Of a stretch of 64,000 bases of DNA, positions 53,889-62,023 are shown in pieces. Within the stretch, counting starts at the first letter, position 1. Each line of letters begins with the position of its first letter. The DNA comes from Proteocatella sphenisci DSM 23131. Lineage in GTDB: Bacteria > Bacillota > Clostridia > Peptostreptococcales > Filifactoraceae. The notes under the pieces were generated by a model. It saw only the letters and a list, made by a program, of their open reading frames with translations, was not told where the DNA came from and made no database searches. The DNA lies in assembly GCF_000423525.1 (NCBI RefSeq), contig NZ_AUID01000003.1:62001-126000 (forward strand). Reading direction: 5' to 3'. A program made the position numbers and the translations under genes.

Positions 53889-54437
53889 TTACCAGTTTAC
53901 AGATCTTATCTGGAAATGCGCTTGTGAATGATCACATACTGGACATTTTGGAGGTGCCTGAAGGCTCTCTACTATATAGCCACAGTTGTCACAATGCCAA
54001 AGCACTTTTTCTTCTCTTTTAAATACTTTTCCACTTTGAATATTTTGAAGAAGATCATTGTATCTGTCTTCGTGCTCTTTTTCTATTTCAGCAACTTTGG
54101 TAAAAAGGAATGATATATGGTCAAACCCTTCTTCTTTTGCTTCTTTTGCAAATGTTGGGTACATTTCATTCCACTCATAGTTCTCGCCTTCTGCTGCCTG
54201 CATAAGGTTGTCCACAGTATCAGCACTTATTCCTTCAAGAAGCTTGAACCACATTTTTGCGTGCTCTTTCTCGTTGTTTGCTGTTTCTTCGAATATGTTA
54301 GCAATCTGCACATATCCCTGCTTTTTTGCAACACTTGAAAAATAAGTATATTTGTTTCTCGCCATCGATTCTCCTGCAAATGCATCTAACAGGTTTTTCT
54401 CAGTTTTTGTACCTTTTAAGCTTTTTACTTCTGCCAT
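53889..54437 (-). CDS. rbr: Rubrerythrin
   Basis: The 182 residues have the diiron four-helix domain (EKNLLDAFAGESMARNKY, EETANNEKEHAKMW, FTKVAEIEKEHEDRY) and a C-terminal rubredoxin-like FeS4 domain (WHCDNCGYIVES and CPVCDHSQAHF). It reduces hydrogen peroxide to water using electrons from a rubredoxin or flavoprotein, an oxidative-stress defence of anaerobes. GGAGAACATTAAA precedes the ATG. It is 38 nt downstream of the perR-type gene and very likely in one transcript with it. Confidence 0.96.
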   Translation of the reverse strand: MAEVKSLKGTKTEKNLLDAFAGESMARNKYTYFSSVAKKQGYVQIANIFEETANNEKEHAKMWFKLLEGISADTVDNLMQAAEGENYEWNEMYPTFAKEAKEEGFDHISFLFTKVAEIEKEHEDRYNDLLQNIQSGKVFKREEKVLWHCDNCGYIVESLQAPPKCPVCDHSQAHFQIRSVNW

Positions 54438-54475
54438 TTTAATGTTCTCCTTTTTAGATTATATATTTTAGTTTA

Positions 54476-54892
54476 TTACTGACATTTTTTTATGCAGTTC
54501 GGGCATATTCCTGTGAATATTATCTTATATCCGCTTACTGTAAATCCAGATTTTCTCAAAAATTCAGTATCCTGACTTGTTATTTTTTCTTCCAGATCTC
54601 CAGCTTCTGAGGAAATATCGTATACTTTACCGCAGTTTTCGCATTTTACGTGGTTATGGTTTGTAATTGTGTGGTCAAATCTGTCGGCCCCATCTACAAC
54701 CATGACTTTTTTTATGACATCTTCTGCTACAAGCATATTGAGGTTCCTGTAGACGGTTCCCTTGCTTATGTTTTTGTAGGTCATTAATATATATCTGTAT
54801 ACTTCTTCTGCAGTAGGATGGTTTTTAAGGCTCTGCACTGCATCGAGTACAAGTTTTTTCTGTATTGTATTTCTTCTTTTTGGTGTATTCAT
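54476..54892 (-). CDS. perR: Fur-family peroxide regulator (PerR-like)
   Basis: The 138-residue protein (ATG 54892; another ATG at 54904 is only 3 nt from the AGGAGG) has the Fur winged helix (HPTAEEVYRYILMTYKNISKGTVYRNLNML), a regulatory metal site with Asp and His residues in DRFDHTITNHNHVKC, and two structural CxxC pairs (CENCG and CPNCIKKC). The RFD...H.HVKC.NCG pattern and rubrerythrin downstream point to PerR, which is inactivated by peroxide-driven histidine oxidation. Fur or Zur cannot be fully excluded. Confidence 0.88.
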   Translation of the reverse strand: MNTPKRRNTIQKKLVLDAVQSLKNHPTAEEVYRYILMTYKNISKGTVYRNLNMLVAEDVIKKVMVVDGADRFDHTITNHNHVKCENCGKVYDISSEAGDLEEKITSQDTEFLRKSGFTVSGYKIIFTGICPNCIKKCQ

Positions 54893-54924
54893 TATTCCAT
54901 CCACCTCCTTACTGAGAATAGTTC

Positions 54925-55047: not shown

Positions 55048-55749
55048 ATGAGTATAATACTTATTATAGAAGATGAAAAACCAATTTCAGATATCATAAA
55101 ATTTAATCTTCAAAAAGAGGGATTTGACATCCTTACCGCATATGATGGAAAGGAAGGCCTTGAATTGGCGCTTTCTGCTAATCCTGATCTTATCATACTT
55201 GATATAATGCTGCCTGGGATGAACGGTTTTGACGTATGTAAAAAACTCAGAGAAACTTCGAATGTTCCTATAATAATGGCCACGGCAAAAGAAGAGGAAG
55301 TCGACAAGATACTTGGTCTGGAATTTGGTGCAGATGACTATATTACAAAGCCTTTCAGCGTGAGAGAATTAACTGCCAGGGTTAAAGCAAATCTCAGACG
55401 TACTGCAATGCCCATAGTATCACCAGAAAGTGCAGAAAATGCAAAAGAACATATAAGAAGTGGCTCTCTTTCTATAAATGTTTCTAAATATGAGGTTACC
55501 AAATTTGGTGAGGCTCTGCCTCTTACTGTTAGAGAATTTGAACTGCTTAAGTTTCTTGCTACTCAGCAAGAGCAGGTGTTTTCACGTGAGCAGCTTCTAG
55601 AAAAGGTATGGGGCTATGAATACTACGGAGATATAAGAACTGTAGATGTAACCGTAAGAAGACTGCGTGAAAAGATAGAAGACGACTCTGCAAAACCAGT
55701 TTATGTAATGACAAGAAGAGGAGTCGGTTATTATTTCAAAGGTGAATAA
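55048..55749 (+). CDS. walR: Essential response regulator WalR (YycF)
   Basis: ATG 55048 follows AAGGAGGCTTTT; the open frame upstream lacks a site. The 233 residues have a receiver domain with acidic pocket EDEKP, phospho-acceptor Asp in LIILDIMLPGMNG and Lys in DDYITKPFS, then an OmpR-type winged helix (LTVREFELLKFLATQQEQVFSREQLLEKVWGYEYYGDIRTVDVTVRRLREKIE). Together with WalK, YycH and YycI it identifies the wall-homeostasis system that controls peptidoglycan hydrolases. A TGTAAC-N5-TGTAAC WalR box occurs inside the operon at 57613-57629. Confidence 0.95.
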   Translation: MSIILIIEDEKPISDIIKFNLQKEGFDILTAYDGKEGLELALSANPDLIILDIMLPGMNGFDVCKKLRETSNVPIIMATAKEEEVDKILGLEFGADDYITKPFSVRELTARVKANLRRTAMPIVSPESAENAKEHIRSGSLSINVSKYEVTKFGEALPLTVREFELLKFLATQQEQVFSREQLLEKVWGYEYYGDIRTVDVTVRRLREKIEDDSAKPVYVMTRRGVGYYFKGE

Positions 55750-55771: not shown

Positions 55772-57595
55772 GTGTTTAAAAGTATCCGCTGGAAACTAAG
55801 TATACTGTATTTTGTGCTTGTCTTTATTGCAATGGCTATAGTTGGAATATTCATAACCGACCGCCTGGAAGATTATAATCTGGACATTGTGCGTCAAAAT
55901 CTGGTGTCTATATCCAATAACACGATTCGGAGCATTATCCCGGACTCCAGTCTTCCTGATGCAAAAGATTCTATACAAGACAGCATTGACATGATCACAC
56001 TTCCCATAGGCTATAGCATATCCATAGTGGATTCACTCGACTATTCTATTATTGCGTCCTCAAACGACAGCTTTACGGGAAAAAACAGCCTTGATGTCCT
56101 GGACAGAAAGGTCATAATGAGCAGTCTCACCCAGAAGTCATATGAACTTGATATAGTTGATCCATCTCCAGGAAGCTCTATGGTTAAAATAATGGCTTTT
56201 TCATTTATAAACGATGCCAATGGGGGAGGTTATATAATATACTCAAGCGCAAGCCTTGAGGGAGTATATGCTTCGCTTAATACTGTAACTGATGTTTTTC
56301 TTACGGCCACGCTCATTGCCCTCTTTGTTTCGCTGCTGGTGGGTTTTCTTATATCTGGTTCCATAACCACCCCTATTAACGAACTCAATGCAAAGGCAAG
56401 TCTTATAGCCAAGGGAGATTTTTCACAAAGAGTCACCAATCATTCAAACGATGAAATTGGAATGCTGGGAAATACCTTTAACTATCTTACCAAGCGACTG
56501 GACAATACTTTGGTAGAGATTTCATCAGAAAAAAGTAAACTCGATGCAATTATAAACAATATGGCTGACGGCCTCATGGCTCTTGATGAACACGGTTTTA
56601 TAGTGCTCTACAACAAGGCTCTTCTCAAGCTGCTTAAGGCTCGCGATATAGATATTTATGGTAGTTCTGTTCATGATATGTCCCTTCAGACAGGTGTTGG
56701 AATCTCATTTTCTGCCATTAAGAAATGTATCTTTGATGATAATTCAAACCAACTTATTATAAATGCCGGTGATGAAAAAATACTCAGAGTATCGCCTGCC
56801 TACTACAGTGACGATGCTAAAAAACAAACCGGTTTTATTCTGGTATTTCAAGACATTACCGATGCGCAAAGACTTGAAAATATGAGAAAAGACTTTGTTG
56901 CAAATGTATCTCATGAGCTAAAAACTCCTATAACTACTATAAAATCTTATGCTGAAACGCTTTCAAGTGGCATAGTTACAGAGCCTGAGACAGTAAGTGA
57001 ATTTTTAATGGTAATCGAAAATGAGGCCGACAGAATGACTTCTATAGTAAGAGACCTGCTTCAATTATCTCATTTCGATTTCAAGAAAGCTCAGTGGAAT
57101 TTTGAACACAATTCCATCAATGATATAATAAGGGAATGCATAGAGCATCTGAAAATATATTACATTGAAAAAAATCAGACTGTTAATTTTACCACCACAA
57201 ATAATCCGAATATTCTCGTTGATAAGGCAAAAATAAAACAGGTAATACTAAACATTTTGTCAAATGCTATCAAATACACACCCGAGTTTGGAAATGTGGA
57301 TATCTCGGTAGATACTGTGGATAATTTTGTAGATATCTATATCCGAGATGACGGTCTGGGTATACCCGAAGAGGACCTTGAGCAGATATTTGAACGCTTC
57401 TACAGAGTAGATAAGGGAAGGTCCAGACAGCAGGGTGGGACAGGCCTTGGGCTTTCTATAGCTCGAGATATTGTAATCGCTCACGGCGGAAAATTGAAGG
57501 CTTCTTCAGAAATTAACAAGGGCAGCATCTTCAAAATCAGCCTTCCTGTGGATAAGTCTGTGGCAAACCCGAATAAAGATGGTCTAAATGTGTAA
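55772..57595 (+). CDS. walK: Sensor histidine kinase WalK (YycG)
   Basis: Starts at GTG with GGGAGAATAAA upstream. The 607 residues have two membrane helices (about 8-28 and 172-192) around an extracytoplasmic sensor domain, a HAMP linker (about 193-245), a PAS domain (about 255-365), HisKA with the phospho-acceptor in VANVSHELKTPITTIKSYAE, and an HATPase_c domain with N-box, DDGLGIPEEDLEQIFERFYRVDKGR and GGTGLGLSI. It phosphorylates WalR in response to wall-synthesis status (lipid II in Gram-positives). It is 22 nt downstream of walR. Confidence 0.95.
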   Translation: MFKSIRWKLSILYFVLVFIAMAIVGIFITDRLEDYNLDIVRQNLVSISNNTIRSIIPDSSLPDAKDSIQDSIDMITLPIGYSISIVDSLDYSIIASSNDSFTGKNSLDVLDRKVIMSSLTQKSYELDIVDPSPGSSMVKIMAFSFINDANGGGYIIYSSASLEGVYASLNTVTDVFLTATLIALFVSLLVGFLISGSITTPINELNAKASLIAKGDFSQRVTNHSNDEIGMLGNTFNYLTKRLDNTLVEISSEKSKLDAIINNMADGLMALDEHGFIVLYNKALLKLLKARDIDIYGSSVHDMSLQTGVGISFSAIKKCIFDDNSNQLIINAGDEKILRVSPAYYSDDAKKQTGFILVFQDITDAQRLENMRKDFVANVSHELKTPITTIKSYAETLSSGIVTEPETVSEFLMVIENEADRMTSIVRDLLQLSHFDFKKAQWNFEHNSINDIIRECIEHLKIYYIEKNQTVNFTTTNNPNILVDKAKIKQVILNILSNAIKYTPEFGNVDISVDTVDNFVDIYIRDDGLGIPEEDLEQIFERFYRVDKGRSRQQGGTGLGLSIARDIVIAHGGKLKASSEINKGSIFKISLPVDKSVANPNKDGLNV

Positions 57596-57612
57596 ATCAT
57601 TTTTAACTGCAA

Positions 57613-57645
57613 TGTAACTTGTTTGTAACATGACCATAGTATAAT
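57613..57645 (+). promoter_or_regulatory. WalR box and -10 element upstream of the exported-protein gene
   Basis: TGTAAC at 57613-57618, five bases, TGTAAC at 57624-57629: an exact match to the published WalR/YycF consensus TGTWAH-N5-TGTWAH. TATAAT follows at 57640-57645, so the box covers the -35 position, as for OmpR-family activated promoters. Confidence 0.8.
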
Positions 57646-57691
57646 AAAATATGATGTAAGTATATATTAATGGAGAAAGGAGGTTAACTGA

Positions 57692-58228
57692 ATGAAAAAA
57701 GTAATCAGATTATCTATAATGACAATGTTTATTTTTATTGCTTTTACTGCAATGTCTTTTGCAGCTCCAGCAGACAGCATATCTGCTGATACTGTTGAAA
57801 AACTTTCGGAATCATTTAATTCAGATCGCAGCGTAATAAATAAACCCAAAGACTTTGTTCTTGCTACCATAGATGACAACGTAATTATATCAGGAATGGG
57901 AAAAGAAGGAGACAAAATCTCTATCTCCCTTTATACAAGAGTTGATGATGAATACGTTCCTATCAAAGATTCTATTGAGGTTAAACTTGGAAGAATAGGT
58001 GATTTTATGGAGAAAATCTCCTTAAAGTATCAGACTTCCAGAATGCCTGTAGAATCCAAAATATCCAAAGATACCCTTGTAGTCCTTACTCTTAAGAGGG
58101 GTGATTCCTTTTTAAGAGATTATCGAGTAATCAAGGCTTCAGATGAAAAGGATCTTCAGAAATCTCTTAGTACCTTAAGAACTACAGGTTTTAGCACATT
58201 TTCAGCAAGCTCTGCTGTGAAACCTTAA
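57692..58228 (+). CDS. Exported protein of unknown function in the walRK operon
   Basis: The 178 residues begin with a signal peptide (MKKVIRLSIMTMFIFIAFTAMSFAA, cleavage likely after AFA or AA) and continue as a soluble domain with beta-rich segments (DFVLATIDDNVIISGMGKEGDKISISLYTRV, EVKLGRIGDFMEKISL, SKDTLVVLTLKRGDSFLRDYRVI). I recognise no family. AAAGGAGG precedes the ATG. It sits between walK and yycH behind a WalR box, so it is probably an extracytoplasmic WalR-regulated factor, perhaps a modulator of WalK. Confidence 0.8.
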   Translation: MKKVIRLSIMTMFIFIAFTAMSFAAPADSISADTVEKLSESFNSDRSVINKPKDFVLATIDDNVIISGMGKEGDKISISLYTRVDDEYVPIKDSIEVKLGRIGDFMEKISLKYQTSRMPVESKISKDTLVVLTLKRGDSFLRDYRVIKASDEKDLQKSLSTLRTTGFSTFSASSAVKP

Positions 58229-58248: not shown

Positions 58249-59589
58249 ATGAATAAAAACCAGCTTAGAAATACATCTATTATATTTTTATTGATATCGT
58301 CAATGGTTCTTCTGTCTATAAGGTTTGAATTGTTTGTCTCACCCTCTTCAACAGCTTCAACAACATTTGACGCCATCGGAGTGGAAGGAATTTTAAAATC
58401 TTCTGTCAGACCCACATCTATAATCATAAGGTACACTACCAACAATGTAACTAAATTAGTAGATAAGGACGGATTTTATTATCAGGAGGCGCGCATTGTT
58501 CTAAGAGACTCTTTGAGTGATATAAGCGAAACTTCAGAAATTTCGGAAGTGGACTATCATGAAGCAAAGATTTCCAAGAGTATTGAGCTCGATTTTGAAC
58601 CTGCTGTAAATCAAAGACTCCTCTATGGGAGTCTTTTTTTAGAAGACGGAAGCCTTGGCGATTTTGAAAACATCAGAGAAATTCTTATCCCTCTGGTTAA
58701 TGACACCTCTGTATATATAATGACTGAAGATGCAAAATTCTTCAGACTTGCAAATAAAACAATAAACTACATGCCCTATGTCGATAATCTGAGCAAACTG
58801 AAATATTCAAAATACTACTCTCTTGGAGAGCTTTTTGATTCTTCGAGTGATGTTCTTATTTCTGACAGCGGAATAAATATTCCAAGCTATGAAACCACGT
58901 CGGCATTTAACGAAGAAAATTCGAGTTCCATACCAAAGTCTGTATTTTCATCAAGATATGACTTTGCCAACCGTATACAAGAGCTCGATGGCACTTTAAT
59001 AACCTCCAACGACTATGGAAGAGAACTTTTAAAGATGTCTCCGGACGGAAGAGTTGCTTATAAAAACACTGATGTTCTGAGCAATCCTGTGAAAAATTCG
59101 ATGACCAGCAGTCTTGTAATAGCCTATCTGTTCATAGACAAGTTTAATGTTAATAATGATGTTTATGTGGTTGAGGATGTTGTCGATTTTAGTGAAAATG
59201 GGACAAATGGATATACCTTTGTTTTTGCACCCCGTATAGATGGTCTTAGGGCTTGTCTTGAAAATAACGAAGTAAATACTGAAGTAAGTGTAGCAAACGG
59301 TAAGGTTTACAGCTTCAAAGGAATTTTCAGATCTTATGAAAACAATGAAGATAAGCCAGCCGATGATTCAGATGACTATATTTTCAATGCACTGGATGTG
59401 CTTAACCTGAATTATGACTATATAAAGTCCACGGTAAAATTCAAGGATAATCTTGAACTTTTTAACAAAATTTCCCTCATAGACCTTGTATATGTATATG
59501 GCCAGGACCTTAGTTATACTCCTGCCTACAAGATGATTATAGCTGGAAAGATATTCTACTTTTCAACCCTGAATGGGGAGGTAATTTAA
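58249..59589 (+). CDS. yycH: YycH-like regulator of WalK
   Basis: The 446 residues have one N-terminal membrane helix (about 8-27) and a large extracytoplasmic part beginning TFDAIGVEGILKSSVRPTSIIIRY. The position after walK, the length and the topology fit YycH, which with YycI binds WalK in the membrane and tunes its activity. Sequence similarity is diffuse, so the call rests partly on synteny. GAAGGACGACC lies before the ATG. Its stop overlaps the yycI start by 1 nt (TAATG). Confidence 0.8.
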   Translation: MNKNQLRNTSIIFLLISSMVLLSIRFELFVSPSSTASTTFDAIGVEGILKSSVRPTSIIIRYTTNNVTKLVDKDGFYYQEARIVLRDSLSDISETSEISEVDYHEAKISKSIELDFEPAVNQRLLYGSLFLEDGSLGDFENIREILIPLVNDTSVYIMTEDAKFFRLANKTINYMPYVDNLSKLKYSKYYSLGELFDSSSDVLISDSGINIPSYETTSAFNEENSSSIPKSVFSSRYDFANRIQELDGTLITSNDYGRELLKMSPDGRVAYKNTDVLSNPVKNSMTSSLVIAYLFIDKFNVNNDVYVVEDVVDFSENGTNGYTFVFAPRIDGLRACLENNEVNTEVSVANGKVYSFKGIFRSYENNEDKPADDSDDYIFNALDVLNLNYDYIKSTVKFKDNLELFNKISLIDLVYVYGQDLSYTPAYKMIIAGKIFYFSTLNGEVI

Positions 59590-60368
59590 TGAACTGGAAC
59601 AAAGCAAAAAACTACCTGATCATAGCCCTTGCTATTCTTAATATATTCCTTGTTATAAGCATCTTTAACCATAACAACAACGTATCTATAGACAACATAT
59701 ATTTTTCAAAAAAATCAATGGCTGATTTTCAAACTATGCTTGACCGTAAAAATGTAAAGATTACTACGCAAATCCCTACAGATGTATACAATACGGGAAC
59801 GGTAAACGTAGAATACCAGACTATTAATGCCTATGCCTACCCCCTTCTTTTTGAAGAGTACGATGGCAAAATCAACGTGAATTCTCTCAAAAAATTAGTA
59901 ATAAACAACAGCGACATTCTTATTGAAGATACGGTAAACGCAGAAAATTTTGCTAATAGATTTATTTCCAGATATCTGAGTGACTACACATACGAACTAC
60001 GAAACTATACTAAGGAAAATGGGATTATTACCTTTTTTTACAACCCTATATATGACGGTTTTGCCTATGAGGAAAGTGAACTTAGGTTTGTATTCTCTCC
60101 CGAAGGCATGAAAATAGTTATGATAGTAATGAGGCCGCTCGATGTGTCTGCTACAAGTACAAATGTCATAACCAGCGTAGAAGCCATACTCAAAGCCTTT
60201 CCTTCAATGAAGGAAAACACCGTTATAAGCAAAATAGATTTTATATACTATTTTGATACAGTTTTGGCAGAAGATCTTTATAAGGTCAAGAATGCACGCG
60301 CATTCCCCTGCTGGAGGCTTATAACCTCAGACAATGAGTTGTTTTATGTACCTGCACTTGAAAATTAG
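59589..60368 (+). CDS. yycI: YycI-like regulator of WalK
   Basis: The 259-residue protein has a single N-terminal membrane helix (MNWNKAKNYLIIALAILNIFLVISIF), an opening almost diagnostic for YycI, followed by an extracytoplasmic domain. YycI forms a complex with YycH and WalK. GGGGAGGTAATTTA precedes the start; the gene is translationally coupled to yycH. It ends the walRK operon at the terminator 60405-60455. Confidence 0.85.
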   Translation: MNWNKAKNYLIIALAILNIFLVISIFNHNNNVSIDNIYFSKKSMADFQTMLDRKNVKITTQIPTDVYNTGTVNVEYQTINAYAYPLLFEEYDGKINVNSLKKLVINNSDILIEDTVNAENFANRFISRYLSDYTYELRNYTKENGIITFFYNPIYDGFAYEESELRFVFSPEGMKIVMIVMRPLDVSATSTNVITSVEAILKAFPSMKENTVISKIDFIYYFDTVLAEDLYKVKNARAFPCWRLITSDNELFYVPALEN

Positions 60369-61964: not shown

Positions 61965-61993
61965 ATTATATAACTAAAGAAAACTCATGTCAA
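61965..61993 (-). promoter_or_regulatory. Consensus promoter of bioY-bioB
   Basis: Minus-strand TTGACA (61988-61993), 17-bp spacer, TATAAT (61965-61970): a perfect sigma-A-type promoter about 55 nt before the TTG start. Confidence 0.9.
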
Positions 61994-62023
61994 CTAAAAA
62001 TATATTTTAGTTGACATGAGTTT
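61981..62023. promoter_or_regulatory. BirA-type biotin operator, perfect 19-bp inverted repeat
   Basis: Arms 61981-61999 and 62005-62023 are exact complements around ATATA. The core ATGTCAAC-N15-GTTGACAT fits the TGTWAAC-N14-16-GTTWACA pattern of Firmicute BirA sites, and one arm covers the -35 of bioY. It could also act as a terminator for the preceding HAD gene. Confidence 0.8.

Follow-up and report, generated by a model that had tools for sequence, protein, structure and literature searches.

A putative WalR-dependent promoter inside the wal operon of Proteocatella sphenisci and its relatives

The wal genes and the half-site array

The window, i.e. the whole 64,000-nt stretch of Proteocatella sphenisci DSM 23131 DNA that we analysed here, carries walR-walK next to yycH-yycI and thus belongs with the walRK operons. 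An additional gene for an exported protein lies directly before yycH, and it is preceded by four half-sites in an 11-bp step that together span 57591-57629. The features are as follows.

55048..55749, + strand: walR, OmpR-family response regulator, 233 aa (best NCBIfam model NF040534, YycF)
55772..57595, + strand: walK, sensor kinase, 607 aa, GTG start (HK_WalK model; Pfam domains)
57591..57596, + strand: half-site 4, TGTAAA, overlapping the walK stop codon (57593-57595); core TGTAA conserved
57602..57607, + strand: half-site 3, TTTAAC; core TTAA conserved
57613..57629, + strand: WalR box, half-sites 2 and 1, TGTAAC-TTGTT-TGTAAC, TGTAACTTGTTTGTAAC (exact TGTWAH-N5-TGTWAH)
57640..57645, + strand: -10 element TATAAT
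57676..57683, + strand: ribosome-binding site AAAGGAGG (by eye)
57692..58228, + strand: exported protein, 178 aa, gene directly before yycH (signal peptide by eye; structure model)
58249..59589, + strand: yycH (walH), 446 aa (PF07435 via homologues)
59589..60368, + strand: yycI (walI), 259 aa (PF09648 via homologues)

The name WalR is given on the best family match together with the gene order, not on a cut-off: NF040534 scored 337.8 bits, below its curated threshold of 340, and ranked first among 105 families, with a lead of 83 bits. For WalK, the best of 99 families was HK_WalK (NF033092) with 493.8 bits, its curated cut-off of 725 not being reached; HAMP, PAS, HisKA and HATPase all scored above their Pfam cut-offs, and the Pfam search returned no family for the region before HAMP. 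The names yycH and yycI, already used in the initial annotation, are supported through homologues. PF07435 matched 18 of the 28 members of the YycH family alignment (E <=0.01) and PF09648 25 of the 28 members of the YycI family alignment. The window proteins themselves matched neither, nor any other Pfam family convincingly, so that both names are based on the matches of the homologues and on gene order. Searched against PDB sequences, the YycH and YycI profiles matched nothing up to an E of 1.

The product of the gene at 57692 had been described as belonging to an unknown family; indeed, Pfam and NCBIfam searches gave it no family of its own. Glucodextran_B (PF09136) matched 7 of 51 homologues at E <=0.01 and did not match the window protein. 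The predicted structure is a beta-sandwich with strands between residues 55 and 148, a block with pLDDT values of 62-86; the signal peptide and the C-terminus lie below 50, and the mean is 63. The best structural matches were Ig-like DUF3244 chains with Z of 7.7 and 7.4, which may reflect only a common arrangement, and the best Foldseek match (E 7e-4) was to a larger enzyme. Because a mean pLDDT of 63 and matches of this strength name no family, we describe the protein only as probably an Ig-like beta-sandwich.

At 57613-57629 (+) lies the exact TGTAAC-N5-TGTAAC that the initial annotation had reported. It is the sole exact TGTWAH-N5-TGTWAH in the window and agrees in full with the B. subtilis WalR consensus as quoted in PMC9210968. 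This box is the downstream half of the array; the two further half-sites, at 57591 and 57602, go beyond the earlier description, and their cores are likewise conserved. The gap from the box to TATAAT is exactly 10 nt, and transcription would be expected to start near 57652, upstream of the ATG at 57692. Relative to such a start, the box would cover about -39 to -23 and its proximal half-site about -28 to -23, and to this extent the earlier remark that the box sits at -35 spacing is right. No good -35 hexamer precedes TATAAT, the best match to TTGACA at spacings of 16-18 being 1/6. A consensus scan returned an alternative promoter, TTGTAA-16-TAAAAT at 57623-57650 (9 of 12 matches), which would put a -35 inside the box and whose -10 is not the conserved one.

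Is the box more than a chance occurrence? On the window sequence alone it is unremarkable: one exact TGTWAH-N5-TGTWAH was seen with 0.53 expected, and 41 of 100 shuffles hold at least one. Counts over the strain's own genome were considered as proof and dropped, as they show no clear excess over the control: 31 sites versus 25 for the reversed motif and, with one mismatch allowed, 59 versus 50 for TGTAAY-N5-TGTAAY and 8 versus 7 for the box followed by a 10-nt gap and TANNAT. The site described here is the only one of these eight promoter-like matches that is free of mismatch.

We inspected the neighbours of 15 of the 31 own-genome sites, chosen by eye. Two of these sites precede an SLT transglycosylase gene, two an NlpC/P60-G5 gene, two a gene whose exported product carries a copper-amine-oxidase-N domain, and one an NAGPA (phosphodiester glycosidase) gene; one precedes an Amidase_3 gene in inverted orientation. 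The other sites inspected lie within genes (two), before pstS (three) and before an HxlR-type regulator gene (one). The cell-wall hydrolase genes fit the company expected of WalR; since only 15 of 31 sites were inspected and these were picked by eye, we claim no enrichment. In the same genome, two WalR-type boxes about 40 bp apart lie upstream of a lytic transglycosylase gene (L032:253-311, contig C33), and three TTTACA repeats in 11-bp phase, likely a PHO array, stand before a pstS-like gene (L035:5643-5681, own genome C19:34642-34680).

Conservation of the promoter in related genomes

What raises the box above chance is the conservation of the exact 33-bp promoter, TGTAAY-N5-TGTAAY-N10-TATAAT, before the same gene. 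A profile built from alignment A1 of the exported protein matched 70 of the 393 genomes of the order at E <=0.001, the weakest matches covering little beyond the signal peptide. We took the strongest matches (E <=9.3e-7), chosen by the protein only, as a set of 51 loci from 29 genera by their table labels, and used weaker matches only where a promoter match lay directly upstream (nine cases). Eleven of 17 earlier matches entered this set; L011, L012, L014, L015, L016 and L017 were left out, and L015 and L016 (= L028, L029) do not adjoin yycH. Five named records with the exported protein are derived from metagenomes and carry the labels Clostridia bacterium, Peptostreptococcaceae bacterium and Filifactor alocis.

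The exact promoter precedes the exported-protein gene in 44 of the 51 loci and the exact box in 46. In the readable regions, both are absent upstream of walR (0/43), walK (0/47), yycH (0/51) and yycI (0/48), and shuffled upstream regions yielded the promoter in 0 and the box in 11 of 2040 cases. The gene order is similarly constant, with walK upstream of the exported-protein gene in 48 of 51 loci and yycH following it in all 51. In 28 of the 29 genera, array, gap and -10 are all kept at this position. Among the seven loci without the exact promoter, two have one mismatch in the box, two have an altered -10 and three belong to genus g3 (L026, L027, L104), where no box was found at up to one mismatch in 3/3 genomes; one genome of this genus (G007) keeps the order walK, exported gene, yycHI with the box gone.

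The outer half-sites can be judged separately, since their cores were outside the search pattern, which did select for the inner half-sites, the gap and TATAAT. In an alignment of 115 promoters, which include relatives and are thus not independent, the outer TGTAA core 22 bp upstream of the box is conserved at 88-100% per position and the TTAA core of YTTAAW, which lies 11 bp before the box, at 93-100%. The A right after the box is kept in 99%, and most spacer positions are variable.

Rearranged loci show how these genes move. In G002, walRK lies on one contig and is followed by other genes, with no box or promoter after walK; the exported gene, yycH and yycI lie on a separate contig after a glycerol kinase-like gene (by eye) and keep the full promoter, a split that could be an assembly fault. 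Within genus g3, G003 has the exported gene and yycHI apart from walRK, as does G010, where walK is followed by other genes; in both the box is lost. In all three genomes the exported gene travels with yycHI and not with walRK. Gene order and this joint movement lead us to take the 57692 product as a putative partner of YycH and YycI, most likely the third extracytoplasmic member of a set of WalK modulators.

A constitutive promoter or a chance match, with the genes expressed only via read-through from walR, would be in keeping with the 41 of 100 shuffles that hold a box and with the lack of a terminator-like site between walK and the next gene. The promoter in 44 of 51 loci versus none in 2040 shuffles and none upstream of the other four genes, together with its retention in G002 where the genes sit apart from walRK, makes this reading extremely improbable.

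Conservation is stronger for the promoter than for the protein encoded behind it. Family f2 has a longer exported protein, barely recognised by the profile, with promoter and position unchanged, and L173 has no open reading frame above 90 aa between promoter and yycH. L226 and L227, two loci from genomes of other classes, have this promoter immediately upstream of walR-walK-yycH-yycI; L228 and L229 have one gene between promoter and walR, L228 continuing with walK, yycH and yycI and L229 ending in walK.

Is the promoter tied to the wal genes when it is searched for by itself? Scanned with the promoter alone, the 393 genomes of the order gave 108 matches in 99 genomes (reversed control, 2). Of these matches, 89 lie before the exported gene and/or yycH, 14 lie elsewhere and five (three of G384, two of G343) fall outside the examined loci. 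The 89 comprise the 44 of the protein-found set, the nine before profile matches, and 26 of 30 and 10 of 20 further loci in which the promoter stands between walK and the exported-protein gene and/or before yycH. Several of the 14 others precede genes of other exported proteins (by eye), and three precede another two-component system. The class gave 87 matches in 84 of 391 genomes (control, 1), and 28 of the 30 loci examined among these 87 have the promoter before a homologue of the exported protein and/or yycH. A phylum sample gave 36 matches in 29 of 299 genomes (control, 1), with the promoter at the position between walK and the exported gene in 8 of 30 examined loci, the window's own included. 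The order, class and phylum samples overlap in part.

The three matches before another two-component system are L179, L180 and L181 (box near 1947-2000); the WalR-like regulator of that system has 215 aa, and the outer half-sites are missing there. In L196, L197 and L198 (G891, G944 and G920, from other classes), the exact 33-bp pattern, with its box at 1501, lies about 165-235 bp before an open reading frame that by eye resembles a biotin protein ligase.

Probable regulator and mode of action

We consider it quite probable that 57591-57645 is a WalR-dependent promoter for the exported protein, YycH and YycI, with feedback on WalK; WalR binding, activation, interaction with WalK and the sign of the feedback are inferred from sequence, spacing, conservation and gene order. 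The initial annotation had proposed a WalR-driven promoter inside the wal operon and hence a feedback. This proposal gains support from the 28 of 29 genera, from the retention in G002 and from the position before walR in L226 and L227. Against it weigh the lack of a clear motif excess in the strain's own genome, the sites there that lie within genes or before pstS and an HxlR-type gene, the alternative promoter overlapping the box, the loss of the box in genus g3, the scores of WalR and WalK below their curated cut-offs, and the native C. difficile operon, which walR overexpression is reported not to induce. Phosphorylated WalR would bind the four 11-bp-spaced half-sites as two head-to-tail dimers, and the proximal pair would replace the missing -35 and recruit RNA polymerase to TATAAT in a PhoB-type manner.

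In PHO-box promoters, the repeats stand in place of the -35, 10 nt from the -10. Such boxes, too, consist of direct repeats of 11 nt, which domains of the related regulator PhoB occupy in tandem, head to tail (PMC4415409), and the arrangement found here resembles them, with the difference that the half-site is TGTAAY and not the PHO sequence and that the targets are modulators of a cell-wall sensor. Could another OmpR-family regulator of the PhoP/PhoB type therefore use the array? The shared repeat length, the many OmpR-family models that match WalR and the promoters of L179-L181 before a different two-component system would speak for it. However, the likely PHO array before the pstS-like gene of the same genome is made up of repeats that read TTTACA in the direction of transcription, reverse-complementary to the present array, and the promoter is found mostly at wal operons (89 of 108 in the order, 28 of 30 examined in the class) and, in two other genomes, immediately upstream of walR. 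We hold another regulator to be very unlikely; the identity of the array as a PHO box, considered for the shared 11-bp repeats, was rejected because the pstS array points the opposite way.

Would WalR activate or repress from this array? In S. aureus, WalR is reported to bind as a dimer, with sites upstream of the -35 going with activation and sites between or downstream of the -35 and -10 going with repression (PMC10746227). As the sites at the present promoter stand where a -35 would be, WalR would quite likely activate rather than repress. Counting against activation, the proximal half-site alone would fall into the S. aureus repressing zone. WalR might thus bind and repress the accessory genes by blocking polymerase, in which case YycHI and the exported protein would fall when WalR is active; the overlap of the proximal half-site with the expected polymerase footprint, and of the box with the weak promoter TTGTAA-16-TAAAAT, would be consistent with this. 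On the other hand, there is no good -35 for WalR to block upstream of the conserved TATAAT (best TTGACA match of three spacings <=3/6 in 43 of the 44 protein-found promoters, and 1/6 here), and a 10-nt gap fixed in 44 of 51 loci fits a polymerase contact better than occlusion. Repression is therefore, in our view, unlikely.

Possible feedback on WalK and known Wal systems

If WalR activates here, the promoter would drive a second transcript for the exported protein, YycH and YycI, added to the read-through from walRK, and WalR output would set the amount of WalK's own modulators, of which YycH and YycI are the ones already known, both acting at the membrane. The walRK genes, which have no exact WalR box upstream here, would stay under another promoter. 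The sign of the loop would depend on the modulators: it would be negative, i.e. a homeostat, should YycHI inhibit WalK as they do in B. subtilis (PMC7299342), and positive should they activate it as in S. aureus (PMC5013275, PMC7355866). Deletions of yycHI in S. aureus are reported to have no major effect on strongly WalKR-dependent genes (PMC4801191).

The wal operons walRKHI(J) of B. subtilis and S. aureus resemble the present one in the same order of walR, walK, yycH and yycI, in the consensus TGTWAH-N5-TGTWAH (B. subtilis) and in a cell-wall hydrolase regulon; the window differs from them by the internal WalR-type promoter and the extra exported gene. Loops in which a response regulator switches on an extracytoplasmic modulator of the cognate kinase are familiar from CpxR-cpxP and similar systems. 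CpxR-cpxP, however, is Gram-negative with an unrelated protein and no YycHI, and the exported protein here is a candidate for such tuning of WalK. The clostridial walA-walR-walK-truA2 operon of C. difficile shares with the window WalRK and an extra extracytoplasmic gene. There, a predicted beta-propeller lipoprotein stands at the head of a four-gene operon described without yycHI (PMC9210968), whereas here a signal-peptide protein follows walK and precedes yycHI.

Most accounts hold that wal operons are not autoregulated (PMC9210968, PMC4801191 and the text of PMC8774646). For S. aureus, two promoters that lie upstream of walR and lack WalR sites are reported to transcribe walRKHI, which is called 'not autoregulated' (PMC4801191), and a review states the same in its text and marks walRKHI 'auto' in its table (PMC8774646). 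The B. subtilis operon is described as 'not under auto-regulatory control', and tuning of the WalRK set point via the levels of WalK, WalH and WalI was argued to be unlikely on this ground (PMC7299342). In C. difficile, walR overexpression is reported not to have induced the native wal operon (PMC9210968). A search of the literature, mostly outside subscription journals, returned no description of a WalR-dependent promoter inside a wal operon. Thus, the system is a known one, and its new part is the WalR-type promoter for the modulators inside the operon.

Given how deeply the WalR-type promoter before yycHI is conserved, many Clostridia may tune the WalRK set point via modulator levels. We lean, with some reserve, towards the view that the Wal system of much of the class works as a built-in homeostat, in which WalR output would set the level of YycH, YycI and a third, previously unrecognised Ig-like exported subunit. 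On this view the promoter, more conserved than the protein, would have moved in evolution between positions within wal operons and at their head. By way of this promoter, a simple genetic test could ask if the set point of an essential regulator of the cell wall follows the level of its modulators, and the exported protein adds a new extracytoplasmic candidate component of the Wal system in dozens of genera.

Two further features of the window may be mentioned. Next to walR, on the - strand at 53889-54904, are a Fur-family regulator gene and a rubrerythrin-like gene (by eye). At 61981-62023, a 19-bp inverted repeat overlaps a perfect TTGACA-17-TATAAT promoter on the - strand, which precedes a bioY-like gene (by eye) and then a bioB-like gene and looks like a biotin-gene repressor site.
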